Shown here: positions 27,863 to 38,953 of the stretch, in pieces
Numbering within the stretch: position 1 is the stretch's first letter
Layout: every line of letters starts with the position of its first letter
Source: Candidatus Rokuibacteriota bacterium
GTDB lineage: Bacteria > Methylomirabilota > Methylomirabilia > Rokubacteriales > CSP1-6
Reading direction: 5' to 3'
Length of the DNA stretch: 47,913 nt
NCBI GenBank assembly: GCA_003220435.1
Contig: QHSL01000060.1
Span: 111,917-159,829 of the forward strand
Notes under the pieces: generated by a model
The model's input: the letters and a program-made list of their open reading frames with translations, nothing else
What the model was told of the DNA's origin: nothing
Databases searched by the model: none
Translations under genes and position numbers: made by a program

Positions 27863-28834
27863 ATGTCCGTGATCACACGCCGCCGATTCGTCGCCGGCGC
27901 CGCCGCGGCGGGCGCGGCCCCCGTGCTCGCGCCTACCGCCGGCGCGCAGACGTCAGTCAAGATCGGTACCGCGGTGCTCGGCGACTACTCGCTGGCGGGG
28001 CCCGTGATCGTCGCGCTCGAGCGGGGATTGTTCAAGAGCGAGGGGCTCGCCGCCGAGTTCGTGCCGTTTCGGGGCGGCCCGGATCTCCTGAAGGCGGTGA
28101 TGGCCGGCGAGTGTCTCATCGGGATCACCGGCAGCTCCGACATCCTCGTCTTCCGCGAGGCCGGCTCGCCGATCAAGATGATCGCCACGCACACCGAGGG
28201 AAACCACTTCACGCTGAACGTGGCGCCGGAGATCCAGAGGATCGTCGACCTCAAGGGCAAGGCGATCGGCGTCACCCGCGCCGGCGCGACGACGTGGGTT
28301 TTCGCGCGCATGCTCGCGAAGCGGGAAGGCTGGGACCCCGACAAGGACGTGCAGATCGTGGCCCTCGGCGGTCTCGACGCGCAGCTCGCGGCCATGGCCC
28401 GCAAGGAGATCGCGGCCTACGTGTGGGGCGACGGCGGCGCGGTGACCGAGCTCCAGGGCAAGTCCAAGGTTCTCCTGCGCCTGGACGCGGTGACGCCCAA
28501 GTGGATCAGCCAGATCCAGTACGCGTCCGAGGACGCGATCAAGAAGCAGGCCGATGCGATCCGGAAGAGCCAGCGTGCGTTGTTCGGCGCGCTGAAGCTC
28601 ATGCGCGACAAGCCGGGCGAGATCGCCGAGGTGGTCGGCAAGAAGCTCGGCTGGAGCGCCGAGGCGGTGCTCGGCGCCCACAAGATCTCCGGCCCGCTGC
28701 TGCCTGTCGACGGGCGCATCAACGTGGACGCGCTCGGCGCGATGCAGGACACGTTCCTCGAGCACGGACTGATCAAGAGGAAGCTCCCGCTCGACGAGCA
28801 CTACACGCGCGACTTCACACCGGTGAAGCTATAA
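27863..28834 (+). CDS. NMT1/SsuA-type ABC transporter substrate-binding protein with Tat signal
   Basis: A 323-residue binding protein of the NMT1/SsuA/TauA family (nitrate, sulfonate, taurine, pyrimidine precursors). The N-terminus ITRRRFVAGAAAAGAAPVLA contains a twin-arginine motif followed by a hydrophobic stretch and an A-x-A cleavage site. Mature motifs are GPVIVALERGLFKSEGLAAEFVPF, LLKAVMAGECLIGITGSSD and DLKGKAIGVTRAGATT. ATG 27863 has GAGGAGG about 9 nt upstream. No permease or ATPase adjoins it; the SsuBC-like genes at 35345-37811 are the likely partners, 6.5 kb away on the other strand. Confidence 0.88.
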   Translation: MSVITRRRFVAGAAAAGAAPVLAPTAGAQTSVKIGTAVLGDYSLAGPVIVALERGLFKSEGLAAEFVPFRGGPDLLKAVMAGECLIGITGSSDILVFREAGSPIKMIATHTEGNHFTLNVAPEIQRIVDLKGKAIGVTRAGATTWVFARMLAKREGWDPDKDVQIVALGGLDAQLAAMARKEIAAYVWGDGGAVTELQGKSKVLLRLDAVTPKWISQIQYASEDAIKKQADAIRKSQRALFGALKLMRDKPGEIAEVVGKKLGWSAEAVLGAHKISGPLLPVDGRINVDALGAMQDTFLEHGLIKRKLPLDEHYTRDFTPVKL

Positions 28835-28866
28835 GGTCGGTCGTTCTGATTCTCCGCGTCGCGCTC

Positions 28867-30183
28867 GTGCTGCTCGTGCTCGCCGCCGCGGCGCCGGCGC
28901 ACGCCCAGATCTTCCTCGCGTCTCGCCCGAAGCCCGAGTTCACGATCGGGCCGTTGTCGGTCCGCGCGAACGTGGTGCCCGCTGGCGGACCCATCGAGGT
29001 CAGCCTGCTGTGGAGCCTCGTGGTGCCGCCGAACGTCGGCGGCGCAGCGCTCGAGCAGGATCTCTACCTGCTGTGGCCCGGCGCCGTGGACGGCGAGATG
29101 GTCGCCGGGGAGCCGGATCCGACGCTGCGCCGGACGGTCGAGGAACGCGGGTTCCAGGTCACCCGCGAGGGCCGACTACCGCTGTCCGCCCGGGCCGTGT
29201 ACTCCGGTCCTCAGCGGGCGAAGCCGGAGCCTCTGCCCGGCGGCGCGCCGTTCGTCACCTACACGCGGGAGGCGGGACCGCTCGGCCTGCCCACGCCGGC
29301 CACCTGGATCCGGATCCCGTGGACGCCGCAGCTCGTCGACCGCTCGTTCTTGATCGACCTCAGGATGCGGCTCGCCAGGCTCAGGCGGCCCAAGCAGGCC
29401 ACCTGGCTGGAGAACTTCCTGTGGGGCGAGCGCCACCTGGTCACGCTGAGCTTCAGCGACGTCCGGACGCGCGCCACGTTCCCCATGTATCTCGCGTACC
29501 GCGATCGCGTGATCCACCTCGCCGACGATCCGTCGACACTGACCATCACGTTCGCGGACTCCGACCATCTCAAGATCCACGAAGTCTTTCCGGGCTCGAG
29601 CCAGCGGCGCACGAGCGAGTCGCGCCGGCGCACCGAGATCGTGTCGACCTACATCGATCCCTCGGAGGGTCTCCGCCCTCAAGTGTTGATCGTGCAGTAC
29701 GGCTACTTCTCCGGCTGGCAGTCGTGGGCGCCGGTGCTCTTCGCGACGTTGTTCTTCGTCCTCGGCAACGTCGCCGGCCCCCTCGTCACCGCCCTCGCCA
29801 AGCGACTTGGCTCGCGGCTTCAGGGACGCATCCGCATCGGGCCGCGAAGCGGTGCCGGCGCCGAGCACCAGACCGGTACCGTCGTGCCGCGCGAGACGCT
29901 GGCCCAGATCTCGCCAGGCGAGACGACCTACGACGAGATCTTGAAGATTTGCGGACCCGATCCGGAGGAGCGCGAGCGGCTCAACGCCCCGGGTCGCCGG
30001 ACGCTGGTCTATCGCGGGCGCCGCACCGTCCCCCACGGGCGCCGGCAGTTCGGGTGGCTGGCGACGGTACAGAGCTGGGACGTCGAGCACCACGAGCTCG
30101 AGATCGAGCTCGACGGCGACCGGGTGCGCGACGTTCAGGCGCAAGTGCACCGCACACGCCTCACTCAGCCCAACCCGGCCTGA
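28867..30183 (+). CDS. Exported membrane-anchored protein of unknown function, paralogue 1
   Basis: An unrecognised protein of about 438 residues. A hydrophobic N-terminus ending AAPAHAQ is a likely signal peptide. An extracytoplasmic beta-rich region of about 280 residues follows (QIFLASRP, EFTIGPLSVRANV, WSLVVPP, IPWTPQL). Then come a transmembrane segment (SWAPVLFATLFFVLGNVAG) and a C-terminal domain of about 100 residues. There, ISPGETTYDEILKICGPDPEERERL and RTLVYRGRR resemble the SmpA/BamE-type motif (inference). The first conventional start is GTG 28867, but the signal peptide looks more complete from CTG 28846, with AAGG about 9 nt before it. It follows the binding-protein gene by only 12-32 nt. 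Confidence 0.6.
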   Translation: MLLVLAAAAPAHAQIFLASRPKPEFTIGPLSVRANVVPAGGPIEVSLLWSLVVPPNVGGAALEQDLYLLWPGAVDGEMVAGEPDPTLRRTVEERGFQVTREGRLPLSARAVYSGPQRAKPEPLPGGAPFVTYTREAGPLGLPTPATWIRIPWTPQLVDRSFLIDLRMRLARLRRPKQATWLENFLWGERHLVTLSFSDVRTRATFPMYLAYRDRVIHLADDPSTLTITFADSDHLKIHEVFPGSSQRRTSESRRRTEIVSTYIDPSEGLRPQVLIVQYGYFSGWQSWAPVLFATLFFVLGNVAGPLVTALAKRLGSRLQGRIRIGPRSGAGAEHQTGTVVPRETLAQISPGETTYDEILKICGPDPEERERLNAPGRRTLVYRGRRTVPHGRRQFGWLATVQSWDVEHHELEIELDGDRVRDVQAQVHRTRLTQPNPA

Positions 30184-30197
30184 GGCGCGCGGCAAGG

Positions 30198-31526
30198 ATG
30201 AGCCGCGCCTGGGTCGCAGGGCTGCTGCTGGCGGCGGCGCCCGCCGTCGCGGAGGGGCAGATCTTCCTCGCGTCGCGGCCGAGCCCCGAGTTCACGATCG
30301 GCCCGCTGTTCGTCCGCGCGAACGTGACGCCGGACCTGGACGTGGTCACGGTCGACGTGCTGTGGAGCCTCGTGATTCCGCCCACGAAGAGCGGGGCCGG
30401 CGTCGAGCAGGACCTGTATCTTCTCTGGCCGGGGCCGGTCGGGGGCGCGCTGACGGGCGCGTCACCCGACGCTACGCTGGTCGCCTATGTCAAGGATCGC
30501 GGGTTCGTGCCGATCGGCGAGGGACGCCTGCCGCTCTTCGCCCAGAGTCTCTACCGCGCCGGCGACGACGCCCCGCCCCAGCCCATCGCGGGCGGCGCGC
30601 CGTTCGTGACGTTCATCCACGAGGGCGGTCCGCTCGGCCTGACGGCTCCCGCGACCTACGTGCGGATTCCGTGGACGCCCATGCTCGCCAATCGCACCTG
30701 GCTGATGGATCTTCGAATCGACCTGCCCAACCTCCTGAGACGGCGGCAGGCGATGTGGATCGAGGACGCGTTCTGGGGCCCGTCCTACTCGCTGTCGCTC
30801 ACCTTCAACGACGTGCGGCCCCGCGCGCTCTTTCCGCTCTACTTCGAGCAGCGCGACCGGATCGTCCGTCTCGCCGACGATCCGTCGCAGCTGATCGTCA
30901 ACCTCCGCGACGCCGAGCACCTCAAGATCCACGAGGTCTTCCCCAGCTCGGCGCGCCGCCGGCTCAGCGAGACGCTCGACTCCACCGAGGAGGTCTCGCT
31001 CTTCCTCGACCGCTCCGAGGGCTTGAGCCCCCAGGTGCTCACGGTCCGCTTCGGATACTTCCGGGGCTGGCGCGCGTGGACGCCCGTTCTGATCCCGATT
31101 GTCTTCTTCGCGCTCGGCAACCTGGCGTGGCCGCTGTTCATGTCGCTGGCCAGGCGCGTCGGGGCCCGGCTCGCCGGCCGGGTGCAGCTCGGCCCGGGCG
31201 GCGCCGCGCGGCAGACCGGCGTGGTCCTCTCGCGCGAGACGCTCGCCAGGCTCGCCCCCGGGTCGACGACGTACGAGGAGGTTGTGCGTCTCTGCGGCGC
31301 CAACGCCGAGGAGCACGAGCAGCTCGCCGCGCCCGATCGCCGCACGCTGATCTATCGCGGGCGCCGCGTCGCGCCCCAGGGTGGGCGGAGCCTCGGCTGG
31401 CTCGCGACCGTCAGCCGCTGGTCGGCCGAGCAGCACGAGGTCGAGATCACGCTTGAGCGCGACGTCGTCGTCGACGTGCAAGCCCGCGTGCGCCGCTCGT
31501 ACCTGGTGCAACCGGAGCCCAGCTAG
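30198..31526 (+). CDS. Exported membrane-anchored protein of unknown function, paralogue 2
   Basis: A 442-residue tandem paralogue of the preceding gene with the same layout. There is a signal peptide (MSRAWVAGLLLAAAPAVAEG), a beta-rich region (QIFLASRPSPEFTIGPLFV, LWSLVIPPTKSGAGVEQDLYL), a transmembrane segment (WTPVLIPIVFFALGNLAWPL), and a BamE-like C-terminal region (LAPGSTTYEEVVRLCGANAEE, RTLIYRGRR). Conserved stretches between the two include VPFVTFIHEGGPLGL-like and LKIHEVFP segments. ATG 30198 lies 14 nt after the stop of paralogue 1. The family is not recognised; a pair of adjacent copies suggests local duplication and perhaps a heteromeric envelope complex. Confidence 0.65.
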   Translation: MSRAWVAGLLLAAAPAVAEGQIFLASRPSPEFTIGPLFVRANVTPDLDVVTVDVLWSLVIPPTKSGAGVEQDLYLLWPGPVGGALTGASPDATLVAYVKDRGFVPIGEGRLPLFAQSLYRAGDDAPPQPIAGGAPFVTFIHEGGPLGLTAPATYVRIPWTPMLANRTWLMDLRIDLPNLLRRRQAMWIEDAFWGPSYSLSLTFNDVRPRALFPLYFEQRDRIVRLADDPSQLIVNLRDAEHLKIHEVFPSSARRRLSETLDSTEEVSLFLDRSEGLSPQVLTVRFGYFRGWRAWTPVLIPIVFFALGNLAWPLFMSLARRVGARLAGRVQLGPGGAARQTGVVLSRETLARLAPGSTTYEEVVRLCGANAEEHEQLAAPDRRTLIYRGRRVAPQGGRSLGWLATVSRWSAEQHEVEITLERDVVVDVQARVRRSYLVQPEPS

Positions 31527-31601: not shown

Positions 31602-33149
31602 ATGGTTGAGATCACCCGACGTGACGTGCTCAAGACTGCGGCGGCGGGCGCGATGGCCGCGCTCCCGGGCGGTCTTCCGCGCCCGGCGGCCGCGCAAACG
31701 ACGCAGAAGCGCGAGCTGGTCGTCGCTCAGGGCGGCGACATCGCGGCCTTCGATCCGCATCAGAGCACGTCGTCGAATGACATCCGCATCTCGTTCAACA
31801 TCTTCGACAACCTCACCAGCCGGCGTCCGGACGGCAAGCTGGCCCCCGGCCTCGCGACGGAATGGAAGCTGCAGGGTCAGACGACGTGGGTCTTCAAGCT
31901 GCGCTCGGGCGTCAAGTGGCACGACGGTGAGTCGTTCTCGTCGGCGGACGTGAAGTTCAGCATCGACCGCTCGCTCGACACGACCCTGAAGGGCAATCGT
32001 GTCAACACCGTGCTGACCACGGTGGATCGCGTCGAGACGCCGGACCCAGGCACCGTGGTCATCCACACCAAGAAGCCCGATCCGCTGCTCCCAGCGCGGC
32101 TGGGGTTCTATGGCGGACAGATCATCCAGAAGAAGTACGTGGAGTCCGTCGGGCCCGACACGTTCAACCAAAAGCCAGTCGGCACCGGGCCACTGCGCTT
32201 CGTGTCGTGGACGAAGGACGATCGAGTCGTCCTCGAGGCCAACCCGAGCTACTGGGGCGGCCGCGTGGATTTCGACCGGCTCGTCGTGCGCGCGCTGCCC
32301 GAGATGGCGCCCCGCGTGGCCGCCCTGCTCAAGGGCGAGGTCGATCTGATCACTCAGGTCCCACCCGATCAGGGCGAGCGGATCAAGGCCACTGCATCGA
32401 CCGCAGTAGCCGGCGCGCTCTACGGCGGACTCTACGTGCTCGCGGTGAACTCGAAGCGGCCGCCGCTCGACAATCCGCTGGTGAAGCAGGCGCTGTCGCT
32501 GGCCATCGACCGCGAGACCATCGTGAAGGAGCTCTGGCGCGGCCGCGGCATCGTGCCGAACTCGATGATCGCGAAGGGCGACAACCACTTCGATGCCGCC
32601 CAGCCCCCCTTGCCCTTCAATCCGGCCGAGGCAAAAGAGCGCCTCAAGAAATCCGGCTACAAGGGCGAAGAGATCGTCATCGAGACCACCGCCGGATACA
32701 TGGCAGGCGACAAGCCCATGAGCGAGGCGGTCCAGGCCATGTGGCGGGACATCGGGGTGAACGCCAAGGTCGAGCTCTTCGAGTATTCGGTCCGCGCTCA
32801 GAAGAACCGCGACAAGACCTTCAAGGGGCTCTGGTGGTCGGATCCGACGTCGACGCTGCGCGATCCCGACGGCATGATGTGGCGGCTGCTCGGTCCGGGC
32901 GGGCCGCAGGACTACTGGCGCCATCCCGAGTTCGACGAGCTTGGCGCCGCCGCGCGCCTCTCGGTCGATGAAAAGTTTCGCGGTGACGCGTACAAGAAGA
33001 TGACGAAGATCTTCCTCGAGCATTTGCCCTGGATCCCCGTGATCCAGCCGTACGAGGACTACGGCCTGCAGAAGTACGTGGAGTGGACGCCGGATCCGCT
33101 GCAGCAGCTCGAGATCCGGCGCTTCAACTTCAAGTTCCGCCGCGCGTAG
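31602..33149 (+). CDS. Family 5 (DppA/OppA-like) ABC transporter substrate-binding protein
   Basis: A 515-residue extracytoplasmic binding protein for dipeptides, oligopeptides or related solutes. The N-terminus EITRRDVLKTAAAGAMAAL is a Tat-type signal with a twin-arginine pair, and cleavage near RPAAAQ follows. The mature part has the SBP_5 features FDPHQSTSSND, LAPGLATEWKLQG, FKLRSGVKWHDGESFSSADVKFSID, KPVGTGPLRFV and ALSLAIDRETIVKE. The ligand class cannot be decided between peptides, opines and nickel chelates. ATG 31602 follows a strong AGGAGG by 5 nt. Confidence 0.92.
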   Translation: MVEITRRDVLKTAAAGAMAALPGGLPRPAAAQTTQKRELVVAQGGDIAAFDPHQSTSSNDIRISFNIFDNLTSRRPDGKLAPGLATEWKLQGQTTWVFKLRSGVKWHDGESFSSADVKFSIDRSLDTTLKGNRVNTVLTTVDRVETPDPGTVVIHTKKPDPLLPARLGFYGGQIIQKKYVESVGPDTFNQKPVGTGPLRFVSWTKDDRVVLEANPSYWGGRVDFDRLVVRALPEMAPRVAALLKGEVDLITQVPPDQGERIKATASTAVAGALYGGLYVLAVNSKRPPLDNPLVKQALSLAIDRETIVKELWRGRGIVPNSMIAKGDNHFDAAQPPLPFNPAEAKERLKKSGYKGEEIVIETTAGYMAGDKPMSEAVQAMWRDIGVNAKVELFEYSVRAQKNRDKTFKGLWWSDPTSTLRDPDGMMWRLLGPGGPQDYWRHPEFDELGAAARLSVDEKFRGDAYKKMTKIFLEHLPWIPVIQPYEDYGLQKYVEWTPDPLQQLEIRRFNFKFRRA

Positions 33150-35344: not shown

Positions 35345-36085
35345 TCAACCGCGCCAGCGAGATAGCCTATCGTTCACGTGATCGAGGCCGAGAACGATCG
35401 CGATCGACGTCGCGGACACCAGGGCGGTCGCGGCGAAAAGCTCGGGCGCCTGAAAACCGTTGGCCAGCGAGCCCATGACGTAGCCCATGCCCCGGACGCC
35501 GGCGAACATCTCCACGACCAGGACCCCCAGCAGGCAGAAGACGATCCCCAGGCGCATCCCCGCGAGCACGGACGGGACGATGGCCGGCAGCAGCACCTTC
35601 CAGTAGAGCTGCCAGGGTGTGGCGCCGAGCGAGCGAGCCACCGTCACGAGGTTCCGGTCGACGTCGCGCACGGCCCCCATGACCAGGACCAGGATCGGGA
35701 AGAGGCCGTGAAGTGCGCCGTAGAACACCGCCGGCGCCGTACCGTAACCGAGCAGCAAGACGATCCAGGGCAGCACCAGGATCTTCGGCATACCGTAGAG
35801 CGCGATCACGTAGGGCGAGAGGACGTCCCGCAGGAGCCGGAGCGAGCCGACGGCGATCCCGGCGCTCACGCCCAGCACGACCGACAGCACGTAAGCCGCG
35901 GCAGTCTTGGCCAGCGTGTCGCCGAGGCCCGCCAGCACGGGACCCGTGTTGCCGGCCAGGGCGCGGGCCACGGCGCTCGGCGCCGGGACGAAGAGCGGGT
36001 CGACCCACGCGGATCTCGCGGCGAGCTCCCAGAGGGCCAGCCCGGCTAAGACGGTGGCGAGCTGAAGTGCGCGGCTTGTCGTCAT
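35345..36085 (-). CDS. SsuC/TauC-like ABC transporter permease 1
   Basis: A 246-residue permease of the nitrate/sulfonate/taurine type. It begins MTTSRALQLATVLAGLALWELAA and has VPAPSAVARAL, the cytoplasmic segment VTVARSLGATPWQLYWKVLLPAIVPSVLAGMRLG (the family EAA loop, cited in part as ARSLGATPWQLYWKVLLPA) and GLGDTLAKTAAAYVLSVV. ATG 36085 is preferred to ATG 36100 because the shared leader TACAATGA ends exactly there; there is no Shine-Dalgarno sequence. It is paired with permease 2 and probably forms a heterodimer. Confidence 0.9.
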   Translation of the reverse strand: MTTSRALQLATVLAGLALWELAARSAWVDPLFVPAPSAVARALAGNTGPVLAGLGDTLAKTAAAYVLSVVLGVSAGIAVGSLRLLRDVLSPYVIALYGMPKILVLPWIVLLLGYGTAPAVFYGALHGLFPILVLVMGAVRDVDRNLVTVARSLGATPWQLYWKVLLPAIVPSVLAGMRLGIVFCLLGVLVVEMFAGVRGMGYVMGSLANGFQAPELFAATALVSATSIAIVLGLDHVNDRLSRWRG

Positions 36086-36216
36086 TGTACCGGGTGCCAT
36101 GAGGCCGGCTCGGACCGAGGGTGGCCCGCCATAGGAGCGACCCGGCTCCGGTCGCCCGGTTCAGCGTCACTGGTCTTCGAGCCCCGCTTCAGCCGGCTCG
36201 CCCGTGGCCATTTCAT
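36082..36216 (-). CDS. Small upstream ORF (44 codons) coupled to SsuC-like permease 1
   Basis: ATG at 36216 lies 4 nt after the stop of permease 2. The 44-residue reading frame begins MKWPRASRLKRG, contains AGHPRSEPAS near its end, and stops at a TGA overlapping the permease 1 ATG (CAATGA). The peptide is basic and has no known family. Translation may feed ribosomes to the permease start, which lacks its own ribosome-binding site. It could be only a leader ORF without a functional product. Confidence 0.4.
   Translation of the reverse strand: MKWPRASRLKRGSKTSDAEPGDRSRVAPMAGHPRSEPASWHPVQ
36086..36142 (-). promoter_or_regulatory. Shared permease leader motif, copy 2
   Basis: Minus-strand sequence with CGGAGCCGGGTCGC, then GGCGGGCCACCCTCGGTCC, GAGCCGGCCTCA and a final GTACAATGA at the start of permease 1. 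It matches the livH leader (23678-23724) and the permease 2 leader (36968-37028) in order and spacing. It lies inside the 44-codon upstream ORF. Confidence 0.6.
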
Positions 36217-36220
36217 CCGT

Positions 36221-36967
36221 TCATTCGCTCCAGCGCCGGGCTCGGCGCTCCAGGCCGCTCGCGAGGACGTCGGAGCCGACGACGAGGAGCAGCGTGACGA
36301 GGACGAGCGCGACGTAGTCGCCCGTGCGCAGCAGGCCGTAGGCGTGGTTGATGAGGGCGCCCATTCCGTCCTTCGAGCCGAGAATCTCGCCGACGACGAC
36401 CCCGATCACGCTCAGCGCGAGCCCGGTCCGGAGCCCCCCGACGAGCGTGAAGAGCATCGAGGGCAGCATGACACGGAAGAACACGACCACCACACCGGCG
36501 CCGTACGCCCGCGCGACGAGGACGAGATGCGGATTCACCTGTCGCACGCCGGCGAGCACCGCGAGGGTGATCGGGAAGAAGCCGAGCAGGAACCCGAAGG
36601 CGATCTTCGACGCGGCGTCGAGGCCGAAGAACAGCATGAGCGACGGATACCAGACCACGGCCGGGACCGCGTAGAGCGCCGCGATCATCGGCCCCCAGGC
36701 GCGGCCGAGCAGCCGGTTCATCCCGAGCGCGAAACCGCAGCCGAGGCCGGCCGCGACCGCCAGCGCGTACGCCACGCCGATCTCGCGCACCGTCAGCCAG
36801 AGGCTCGCCGGCAGCCGAGGGTACGAGCGGAGGAGCAGGAGATCGCGCAGCGCTGGCACCACCGCCGAGGGCGGGACCGCGAGCAGGGGGTTGGCCGCGC
36901 GCCCCGCCAGCTCCCACACCGCGAGCAGGGCCGCGAGCAGACCGAGGCGGAGCAGGGCGACCTTCAT
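36221..36967 (-). CDS. SsuC/TauC-like ABC transporter permease 2
   Basis: A 248-residue permease beginning MKVALLRLGLLAALLAVWELAG, with VPPSAVVPALRDLLLL, TVREIGVAYALAVAAGLGCG, and the EAA-type loop LVARAYGAGVVVVFFRVMLPS. It ends RRARRWSE. The start ATG 36967 is reached through the TGA of a 22-codon upstream ORF rather than a Shine-Dalgarno site. The protein is a diverged relative of permease 1, so the transporter probably uses a heterodimeric channel with the ATPase encoded just upstream. Confidence 0.9.
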   Translation of the reverse strand: MKVALLRLGLLAALLAVWELAGRAANPLLAVPPSAVVPALRDLLLLRSYPRLPASLWLTVREIGVAYALAVAAGLGCGFALGMNRLLGRAWGPMIAALYAVPAVVWYPSLMLFFGLDAASKIAFGFLLGFFPITLAVLAGVRQVNPHLVLVARAYGAGVVVVFFRVMLPSMLFTLVGGLRTGLALSVIGVVVGEILGSKDGMGALINHAYGLLRTGDYVALVLVTLLLVVGSDVLASGLERRARRWSE

Positions 36968-37032
36968 TGTATCGGGGCCCCCGAGGCCGGCTCCATCCGC
37001 AGGTGGCCCGCCCCAGAAGGGCGCGGCTTCAT
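36964..37032 (-). CDS. Small upstream ORF (22 codons) between the ATPase and permease 2
   Basis: Its ATG (37030-37032) overlaps the ATPase TGA and its TGA (36964-36966) overlaps the permease 2 ATG, giving two ATGA junctions in a row. The 22-residue peptide begins MKPRPSGAG and contains HLRMEPAS, matching the end of the 44-codon ORF (both end in P-I/V-Q). The nucleotide sequence contains the shared leader motif. Whether a peptide is made is unknown; the arrangement indicates continuous translational coupling. Confidence 0.45.
   Translation of the reverse strand: MKPRPSGAGHLRMEPASGAPIQ
36968..37028 (-). promoter_or_regulatory. Shared permease leader motif, copy 3
   Basis: Minus-strand GGGGCGGGCCACCTGCGGAT, then GGAGCCGGCCTC and ATACAATGA at the permease 2 start. 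It matches copies 1 and 2 and shares CGGATGGAGCC with the core of the large palindromic elements. Confidence 0.6.
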
Positions 37033-37811
37033 TGCATCGCCCGGAGCGATTCCTCGCGCATCTCGCTCCAGAGCTTGGCACGCAGCGCGACCATCTCGGG
37101 CGACTCCATCGAGCGCGGGTACTCCATCGTCAGCTCGAGCACCGACTTGATCCGTCCCGGCCGCGCCGTCATGACGGCGACGCGCGTCGACAGGAAGAGC
37201 GCCTCGTGCAGGCTGTGGGTCACGAAGATCACGGTCTTGCGCGTGCGCCGCCAGATGTCGAGGAGCCACTCGCCCATGAGCACGCGAGTCTGCTCGTCGA
37301 GAGCGCCGAACGGCTCGTCCATCAGGAGGATCTTCGCGTCGATGGCCAGCGCGCGCCCGATGGCCACGCGCTGCTTCATCCCGCCGGAGAGCTCGCGCGG
37401 GTAGCGCTCGGCGAAGCCGCCCAGCCCGAGCGGGCCGAGGAGCTCGCCGGCCCTCCGGCGCCTCCGCTCGGCCGGGACTCCCTGCAGCTCGAGCCCGAAC
37501 TCGACGTTCTCGAGCGCCGTGCGCCACGGGAAGAGCCCGGCGTCCTGGAACACGGTGGCGACCCGCCGCGGGTCGGGACCCGTCACCGGCCCGCCGGCGA
37601 CCAGCAGCCGCCCGCGGTCCGGCGACACGAGGCCGCCGAGCATGCCGAGGAGCGTCGATTTGCCGCAGCCGGAGGGGCCGATCAGGGTGCAGAACTCGCC
37701 CTCGGCGACCGAGAGCGACACGTTGTCGAGCGCGTCGACTGGACCCGAGCTCGTGACGTAGCGCTTGGCGACGGACTCGATGGCGATCAGCGCGCCGCCC
37801 GCGGCGGTCAC
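37029..37811 (-). CDS. SsuB/TauB-like ABC transporter ATPase
   Basis: A 260-residue ABC ATPase of the nitrate/sulfonate/taurine group. It has Walker [19 protein letters not shown]-loop [18 protein letters not shown], signature [18 protein letters not shown], Walker [18 protein letters not shown] and H-loop [18 protein letters not shown] 37811 is the start: it overlaps the acyl-CoA dehydrogenase stop by 4 nt (GTGA). The gene ends with CAATGA, which begins the 22-codon ORF. Its binding protein is not in the operon; 27863-28834 is a candidate. Confidence 0.92.
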
Positions 37812-38953
37812 GAGAGCTGGAGGATCTCCCGAGCGATGACCATGCGCTGGATCTCGGACGTGCCCTCGCCGATCTCGGTCAGCTTCGCGTCGCGGAAGAT
37901 CCGCTCGACCGGGAACTCGGTGATGTAGCCGGCGCCGCCGTGGATCTGCACGGCCTTGGTCGCCGCCTTCATCGCGGTCTCGGACGCGAACACCTTCGCC
38001 ATCGCCGCCGCGTGCGAGGCGGGCTGCCCGGCGTCTTTCAGGAGGGCGGCGCGCAGCGTGAGGAGACGGGCCACTTCGACCTCGGTCGCCAGGTCCGCGA
38101 TCATCCCCTGGAGCCCGTTGAACTCGGCCAGCACCCGTCCGAACGCGGATCGCTGCTTCATGTACTTCACGGCCTGGTCGATCGCCGCCTGTGCGATGCC
38201 CACGCCCATCGCCGCCATCGCGATGCGCCCGCCCTCGAGGACCTTCATGGACTGCGCGAAGCCGGTGCCGCGTACGCCCATCAAGGCCGTCTGGGGGACA
38301 CGCGCGTCCTCGAATATCAGCTCGGCGGTGTTCGACGCGTGGAGCCCGAGCTTGCGATAGGGCTTGCCGACGGTGAAGCCAGGCGCGCCCTTGTCGAGGA
38401 TGAAGGCCGAGATGCCCTTGGCCTTCGGCTCCGCCTCGCTCCGGGCCATGACCACCGTGGTGGAGGCAACCGACGCGTTCGTGATGAACGCCTTGCTCCC
38501 GTTCAAGATCCATTCGCCTTGCTTCAGCTCGGCGCGCGTGCGCAACGCGGCGGCGTCGGAGCCCGAGCCGGGCTCGGTGAGGCCCCACGCGCCCAACGCG
38601 CGGCCAGTGGCGAGCGCCGGCAGATACTTCGCCTTCTGCTCGGGCGACGCGAAGCTGGCGATGTGGCTCGTACACAGCGAGTTGTGGGCCCACATCGTGA
38701 TGCCGACCGATGCGTCGCCGCGACAGAGCTCCTCGACGATCAGGGCATAGGACACGTGGTCGAGCCCGGCGCCGCCGTACTGCTCCTCCACCAGCACCCC
38801 GAGGAAGCCGAGCGGGCCGAGCTTCTGTACGATCTCGTGGGGGAACTCGTGGCGTTCGTCGTACGGCGCGATCTTGTCGCCGAGCTCGGCGTCGGCGAAC
38901 TCGCGAGCGACGGCGCGAACCTGCCGCTGCTCGGGCGTCAGCTCGAAGTCCAC
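37808..38953 (-). CDS. Acyl-CoA dehydrogenase (short/branched-chain type)
   Basis: A 381-residue flavoprotein with [54 protein letters not shown] and [19 protein letters not shown]. The C-terminal [17 protein letters not shown] keeps the Glu of the common catalytic motif. It oxidises short or branched acyl-CoA substrates with ETF as acceptor; the exact substrate is not fixed by sequence. It follows the B12 subunit by 6 nt, in an operon suited to branched-chain acyl-CoA breakdown. Confidence 0.93.

Follow-up and report, generated by a model that had tools for sequence, protein, structure and literature searches.

Two adjacent genes of a soil bacterium (Rokubacteria), lying between genes for two ABC transporter binding proteins, encode membrane proteins that belong to no named family, and the question raised by this locus is what these proteins are and with what they might work. 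The window, by which we mean the whole stretch of 47,913 nt that was analyzed, comes from a 5.4-Mb draft genome. A first-pass annotation, made from the DNA sequence without database searches, had described the two products as tandem paralogs sharing a signal peptide, a beta-rich region, one membrane segment, and a BamE-like C-terminus, all of which we find in both proteins, and had placed the BamE-like part on the cytoplasmic side of the membrane, opposite to BamE.

Layout of the Locus

The two genes and their products, here called FAM1 and FAM2, are encoded on the same strand 14 nt apart, and the proteins are 56% identical over 427 aligned residues (E 1e-176). The coordinates, order, and composition of the pair had been given correctly and both gene ends exactly; the start of the first gene, however, is probably the CTG at 28846 and not the GTG at 28867 that had been assigned to it. 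No ATG, GTG, or TTG start yields a normal signal peptide for FAM1, and the sequence AAGG at 28833–28836 lies 9 nt before the CTG. We prefer the CTG start because a normal, charged signal peptide is present in the longer form alone and because a CTG is present at the corresponding site in three sister genomes (G048, G050, and G053), where it overlaps the end of the NMT1-type gene.

Domain searches agree with the earlier placement of the pair between two ABC binding-protein genes, the upstream one of NMT1 type and the downstream one of family 5 (table 1). The NMT1-type gene is likely the first gene of the FAM1/FAM2 transcript. On the minus strand at 35345–37900 the window also encodes two NitT/TauT-type permeases and an ATPase frame, convergent with the binding-protein cluster, and the NMT1-type gene together with these permeases and ATPase could represent one importer split around FAM1/FAM2.

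Table 1. Features of the FAM1/FAM2 Locus (Window Coordinates)
Feature	Position	Strand	Basis or remark
NMT1/THI5-like ABC substrate-binding protein gene	27863..28834	+	PF09084, E 4e-23
Family protein 1 (FAM1), bitopic membrane protein	28846..30183	+	CTG 28846 preferred, GTG 28867 possible
FAM1 signal peptide, predicted cleavage between AHA and Q	28846..28905 (boundary approximate)	+	Sequence reading and family AxA/AxG before Q
FAM1 beta-saddle ectodomain, predicted periplasmic	28906..29730 (boundaries approximate)	+	Alignment to FAM2 and FAM2 model
FAM1 membrane helix	29731..29806 (boundaries approximate)	+	Hydropathy, positive-inside rule over alignment
FAM1 BamE-like domain, predicted cytoplasmic	29807..30180	+	Alignment to FAM2 domain, whose fold was modeled
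Family protein 2 (FAM2)	30198..31526	+	Start ATG, AAGG just upstream
FAM2 signal peptide, predicted cleavage between AEG and Q	30198..30257	+	Sequence reading, family pattern
FAM2 beta-saddle ectodomain, residues 21–291	30258..31070	+	AlphaFold2 model; Ost1 Z 13.2, 181 residues, rmsd 3.2
FAM2 membrane helix, residues ~295–320	31080..31157	+	Hydropathy peak 1.8; charge asymmetry in 75/75
FAM2 BamE-like domain, predicted cytoplasmic	31158..31523	+	Structure search, profile comparison, charge and cysteine pattern
Family-5 (dipeptide-type) ABC binding-protein gene	31602..33149	+	PF00496 (SBP_bac_5), E 4e-86
Permease genes of family-5 ABC cluster	Starts 33196 and 34088		PF00528

Distribution and Evolution of the Family

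A protein search identified the family in 54 of 95 Methylomirabilota genomes, namely in 53 of the 57 genomes of the taxonomic family to which the source belongs and in the one genome of a second family of the same order, whereas the remaining 37 genomes of the phylum gave no match in this search. The family spans one order. Profile searching added one match outside this order, confined to the C-terminal part (E 0.004), which is probably a BamE-like protein rather than a family member. Beyond the phylum set, contigs were scanned with a single protein as query, a search that reaches close relatives only, and the closest named relative found was Candidatus Rokuibacteriota AR28. No members were found in viral contigs or plasmids, and the viral fold library gave no match at E < 0.001.

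Of the nine genomes in the window's genus, six have the intact tandem pair, which is confined to this genus; elsewhere a single gene, or one with a divergent extra copy, is the usual state. Both this confinement and the order-wide range of the family had escaped the first-pass annotation. A maximum-likelihood tree places FAM1 and FAM2 in clades of their own, each with full support, the FAM1 clade consisting of the six copies from the genus, and FAM1 clusters with two sequences from other genera (100/99); the two copies therefore predate the species of the genus. In pairwise comparisons of species dN is 0.03–0.07 and dS 0.28–0.31, and the resulting ratio of about 0.10–0.24 indicates that FAM1 and FAM2 are real genes under purifying selection. 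Individual loci depart from the intact arrangement: FAM1 is broken into two frames in one genome (G052:C49) and was not found beside FAM2 in another (G049:C109), and the single copy of a third carries an in-frame TAG (G079:C18). The source genome itself encodes a third copy (G000:C78, L034 8364–9620; 42% identity), which is shorter, lacks a stretch of the extended hairpin in the BamE-like domain, and precedes a carbon-nitrogen hydrolase gene, an arrangement that recurs within the genus.

Sequence Features and Membrane Topology

We aligned 75 members of the family. Neither protein of the window matches a family in Pfam or NCBIfam, in keeping with the earlier view that no family could be named, and whether single proteins or the 75-member alignment served as query, sequence searches of Pfam, NCBIfam, and PDB returned nothing usable beyond a weak similarity to BamE. 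Single members gave NCBIfam matches to unrelated families at E 0.026 or worse, which we treated as chance. No match to an enzyme family and no catalytic motif was found; the HEXXH motif is absent from all 75 members, and an M1 enzyme was rejected on this ground. The signal peptide consists of a hydrophobic stretch that mostly ends in AxA or AxG before Q. The predicted mature N-terminus reads Q-x-F (FAM2 residues 21–23, window 30258–30266) and is invariant in the 75 sequences, which is unusual.

Following the signal peptide there is one hydrophobic segment (FAM2 residues ~295–320), and in 75 of 75 proteins more basic residues flank it on the C-terminal than on the N-terminal side (mean 6.6 vs. 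1.7). Cysteines are partitioned in the same sense: all 75 ectodomains together contain one, while the C-terminal domains contain at least one in 67 of the 75 proteins and 68 in total, so that these are essentially single and unpaired. Cytoplasmic proteins commonly have unpaired cysteines, which periplasmic ones avoid. Because the positive-inside charge pattern and the cysteine partition agree, the BamE-like domain is predicted to lie in the cytoplasm and the ectodomain in the periplasm, and the orientation proposed in the first-pass annotation is thus supported by two independent signals.

The Ectodomain Is Modeled as an Ost1-Type Beta-Saddle

An AlphaFold2 model of FAM2 built on the 75-sequence alignment has a mean pLDDT of 83.5, with most blocks of the ectodomain near 90, and contains a single saddle of the M1-aminopeptidase type at residues 22–289. 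In a second structural aligner ranks 1–8 were all Ost1/ribophorin I (Z 11.5–13.2, ~181 residues, rmsd 3.2–3.4), followed by the DUF4424 protein lpg2210 (Z 9.9) and then by the N-terminal domains of M1 aminopeptidases (Z ~8–9). The typical Z stated for this aligner for models without a clear match is 7–8, and the best Z of 13 obtained with the modeled ectodomain is well above that background. Foldseek alone listed leukotriene A4 hydrolase and ribophorin I among its top three matches (5.8e-5 and 1.5e-4). The model thus gives good support for the membrane-proximal saddle of Ost1/ribophorin I as the closest known structure. Since identity is 8% and the Ribophorin_I profile (PF04597) matched nothing across the genome even at E 10, what is indicated is a shared fold, common descent being beyond what these data establish.

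The C-Terminal Domain Is Predicted to Adopt the BamE/BLIP Fold

A motif of the (I/L)xPGxTTY(D/E)E(I/V) type that the first-pass annotation had noticed near the C-terminus is detected by a strict pattern in 51 of the 75 members, and when the domains are aligned, the P and one T of the motif region together with the following G show little or no variation. Folded alone, the C-terminal domain reached a mean pLDDT of 80, with a core above 90. Its top 15 rows in the second aligner were all Escherichia coli BamE (Z 8.1–8.9) and covered almost the entire BamE chain; the next rows were BLIP (7.8), DUF4309 (7.2), and gonococcal BamE (6.3), and a search with the whole model returned BamE 9h84_E at Z 8.7. 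The BamE ranking is that of the second aligner, Foldseek alone having given no significant match for the isolated domain. Z values of 8–9 are only moderately above the background of the tool, and the case for BamE lies in the consistency of the list together with the sequence. When the family was compared by hhalign with 24 BamE-like proteins of the same phylum, the probability was 65% (E 6e-5); ten column shuffles scored no higher than 0.92%, and reversal of the profile gave 0.13%. The Pfam model PF04355 is matched by 4 of the 75 members, with a best E of 0.013, and neither protein of the window reaches its gathering score. Together these results support a BamE/BLIP fold for the modeled domain, in line with the BamE-like assignment of the first-pass annotation. 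Long frames of up to ~1000 aa in this genome (G000:C100:2816–2884, L094) and similar frames in other genomes have partial BamE-like matches that cover the first helix-turn only.

The first-pass annotation would have been refuted had structure prediction assigned the proteins to a known family of ordinary function, but the models returned two known folds in a family and an architecture that are not known ones. The earlier statement that no family is recognizable holds in that there is no named family, but the fold of the ectodomain, a saddle of Ost1/M1 type, is recognizable and had been missed. We conclude that this is a new protein family with known folds in a new arrangement.

Genomic Neighborhood

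In 22 genomes, including the present one, a family gene directly follows an NMT1-type gene at a distance of −4 to +124 nt (mostly −4 to +51 nt), sometimes overlapping it, and this pairing persists in loci that lack the dipeptide-transporter genes or the branched-chain cluster. Only some of the genomes have family-5 ABC genes close to the family gene. A NitT/TauT-type permease is encoded a few kilobases away in the window and in most of those loci with an upstream NMT1-type gene. However, an NMT1-type neighbor is missing from well over half of the loci examined, and divergent paralogs instead adjoin a carbon-nitrogen hydrolase (nitrilase-like), a luciferase-like, or a URO-D-like gene, and therefore the partner is not fixed.

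Possible Function

Because the proteins have no enzyme signature and both folds are known from protein-binding complexes, we tentatively propose that FAM1 and FAM2 are paralogous, nonenzymatic type-I inner-membrane adaptors that join periplasmic and cytoplasmic partners. The architecture is well supported; whatever goes beyond architecture and topology we infer. Prediction strongly supports a first step in which the protein would be exported by Sec via its cleavable signal peptide and stop at its one membrane helix, so that a noncatalytic saddle would face the periplasm and an Arg-rich domain of BamE fold the cytoplasm. By analogy with the saddle domains of Ost1 and the M1 enzymes, the saddle may then dock a periplasmic partner; the best candidate, both in the window and in 21 further genomes, is the NMT1-type binding protein encoded directly upstream, which is the most likely partner in the main clade. 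As BamE and BLIP are protein-binding modules, the C-terminal domain may likewise dock a cytoplasmic or membrane-surface partner, and the protein would tether or couple components on both membrane faces. The tandem pair may form a heterodimer or supply two versions with different partners.

The folds of both domains, the profile support for BamE, the uniform charge asymmetry, the cysteine partition, and the lack of HEXXH and of any enzyme family match all favor an adaptor, as do the distances to the NMT1-type gene in 22 genomes, which are those of translational coupling, and the nearby NitT/TauT-type permease; yet gene order kept between related genomes can persist without function, the divergent paralogs and most loci have no NMT1-type neighbor, and the isolated C-terminal domain was not significant in Foldseek alone. 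The adaptor could more specifically be a dedicated accessory subunit of a NitT/TauT-type ABC importer, with the saddle receiving the loaded binding protein and the cytoplasmic domain regulating or tethering the transporter. We regard this version as doubtful: it would explain the operon-like adjacency with its short gaps and the permeases and ATPase of the right type in the window, but many members, including the third copy (G000:C78), have no such neighbor and, to our knowledge, other importers of this kind need no such subunit. That the BamE fold reflects a role in outer-membrane biogenesis akin to that of BamE, with the domain in the periplasm, is very improbable given the charge pattern, the cysteine partition, the missing lipobox, and the presence in the genome of a separate BamE-like protein (G000:C90) that is an ordinary lipoprotein with a lipobox.

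The resemblance to Ost1 suggests a bacterial counterpart of its ectodomain-plus-helix module beside the Sec translocon or a glycosyltransferase, in which the saddle would hold emerging polypeptides and the basic cytoplasmic domain contact the ribosome or SecA. The gap between the eight Ost1/ribophorin I rows and the next Z of 9.9, the same order of signal peptide, saddle, helix, and cytoplasmic domain, and a match that runs up to the same place before the helix speak for it, as do the 16% Arg content of the cytoplasmic domain and the binding of ribosomes by the cytoplasmic domain of archaeal Ost1 (PMC11417166). We nevertheless consider such a counterpart unlikely, since the saddle is single where Ost1 has two, the cytoplasmic fold differs, identity is low, the Ribophorin_I profile gives no match, and several carriers (e.g., G039, G069, and G092) have no STT3 match; weak STT3 matches occur within the genus only and were not used as support. 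It is from fold and domain order that an Ost1-like role near the translocon appears possible. That the order-wide family, with an Ost1-type saddle plus helix outside and a BamE fold in the cytoplasm, serves as a translocon-associated or polypeptide-handling adaptor is a conjecture to which we give quite low odds; were it true, the Ost1 ectodomain module could have in this family its first bacterial relative, and a BamE-fold domain could be at work on the inner membrane face. We retain the general adaptor as our preferred reading.

Comparison with Known Systems

The N-terminal domains of M1 aminopeptidases and leukotriene A4 hydrolase have the same saddle fold, but the family lacks the catalytic domain along with HEXXH. 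DUF4424 proteins (PF14415), represented by lpg2210 (4g2a; PMC3848476), are secreted bacterial proteins with an M1-type beta-saddle that aligns over 190 residues; the DUF4424 domain, however, stands alone or is mostly followed by a helical YARHG domain, unlike the membrane helix and BamE-like tail of the family, and a genome-wide search with its profile gave nothing at E 10.

With BamE (PF04355, SmpA/OmlA) and the BLIP superfamily the C-terminal domain shares two short helices around a PGxTTxxEV-type turn, followed by strands, and E. coli BamE 5d0o_E can be superposed on it over 82 of 83 residues at Z 8.9, with an rmsd of 3.2 and 16% identity. BamE is a periplasmic lipoprotein, whereas the family has a signal peptide ending in AxA before Q with no lipobox cysteine, a domain that is cytoplasmic by predicted topology and below the Pfam cut-off, extended Arg-rich strands, and a membrane helix with a saddle ectodomain as tether. 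Our search of the open-access literature turned up no account of such a BamE-like domain in the cytoplasm.

Ost1/ribophorin I has been reported from eukaryotes and from TACK and Asgard archaea (PMC11417166), and the present family is bacterial. Yeast Ost1 (6ezn_A) aligns over 181 residues (Z 13.2, rmsd 3.2) and the human protein at Z 11.9; the matched part, yeast residues 227–443, is the saddle nearest the membrane, followed as in the family by one membrane helix and a cytoplasmic domain. Ost1 has two tandem saddles versus one in the FAM2 model and a ribosome-binding domain where the family has a BamE-like one, and identity over the aligned part is 8%. For an uncultured soil lineage, this work gives the architecture of a membrane-protein family that is conserved and unannotated and occurs in nearly all sampled genomes of the lineage's taxonomic family. 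It indicates that a single membrane helix can link the Ost1/M1 saddle to BamE, both of them complex-holding folds, with the BamE part on the side where it would not be expected. Should the resemblance to Ost1 reflect descent, the family bears on the origin of the eukaryotic and archaeal Ost1 subunit.
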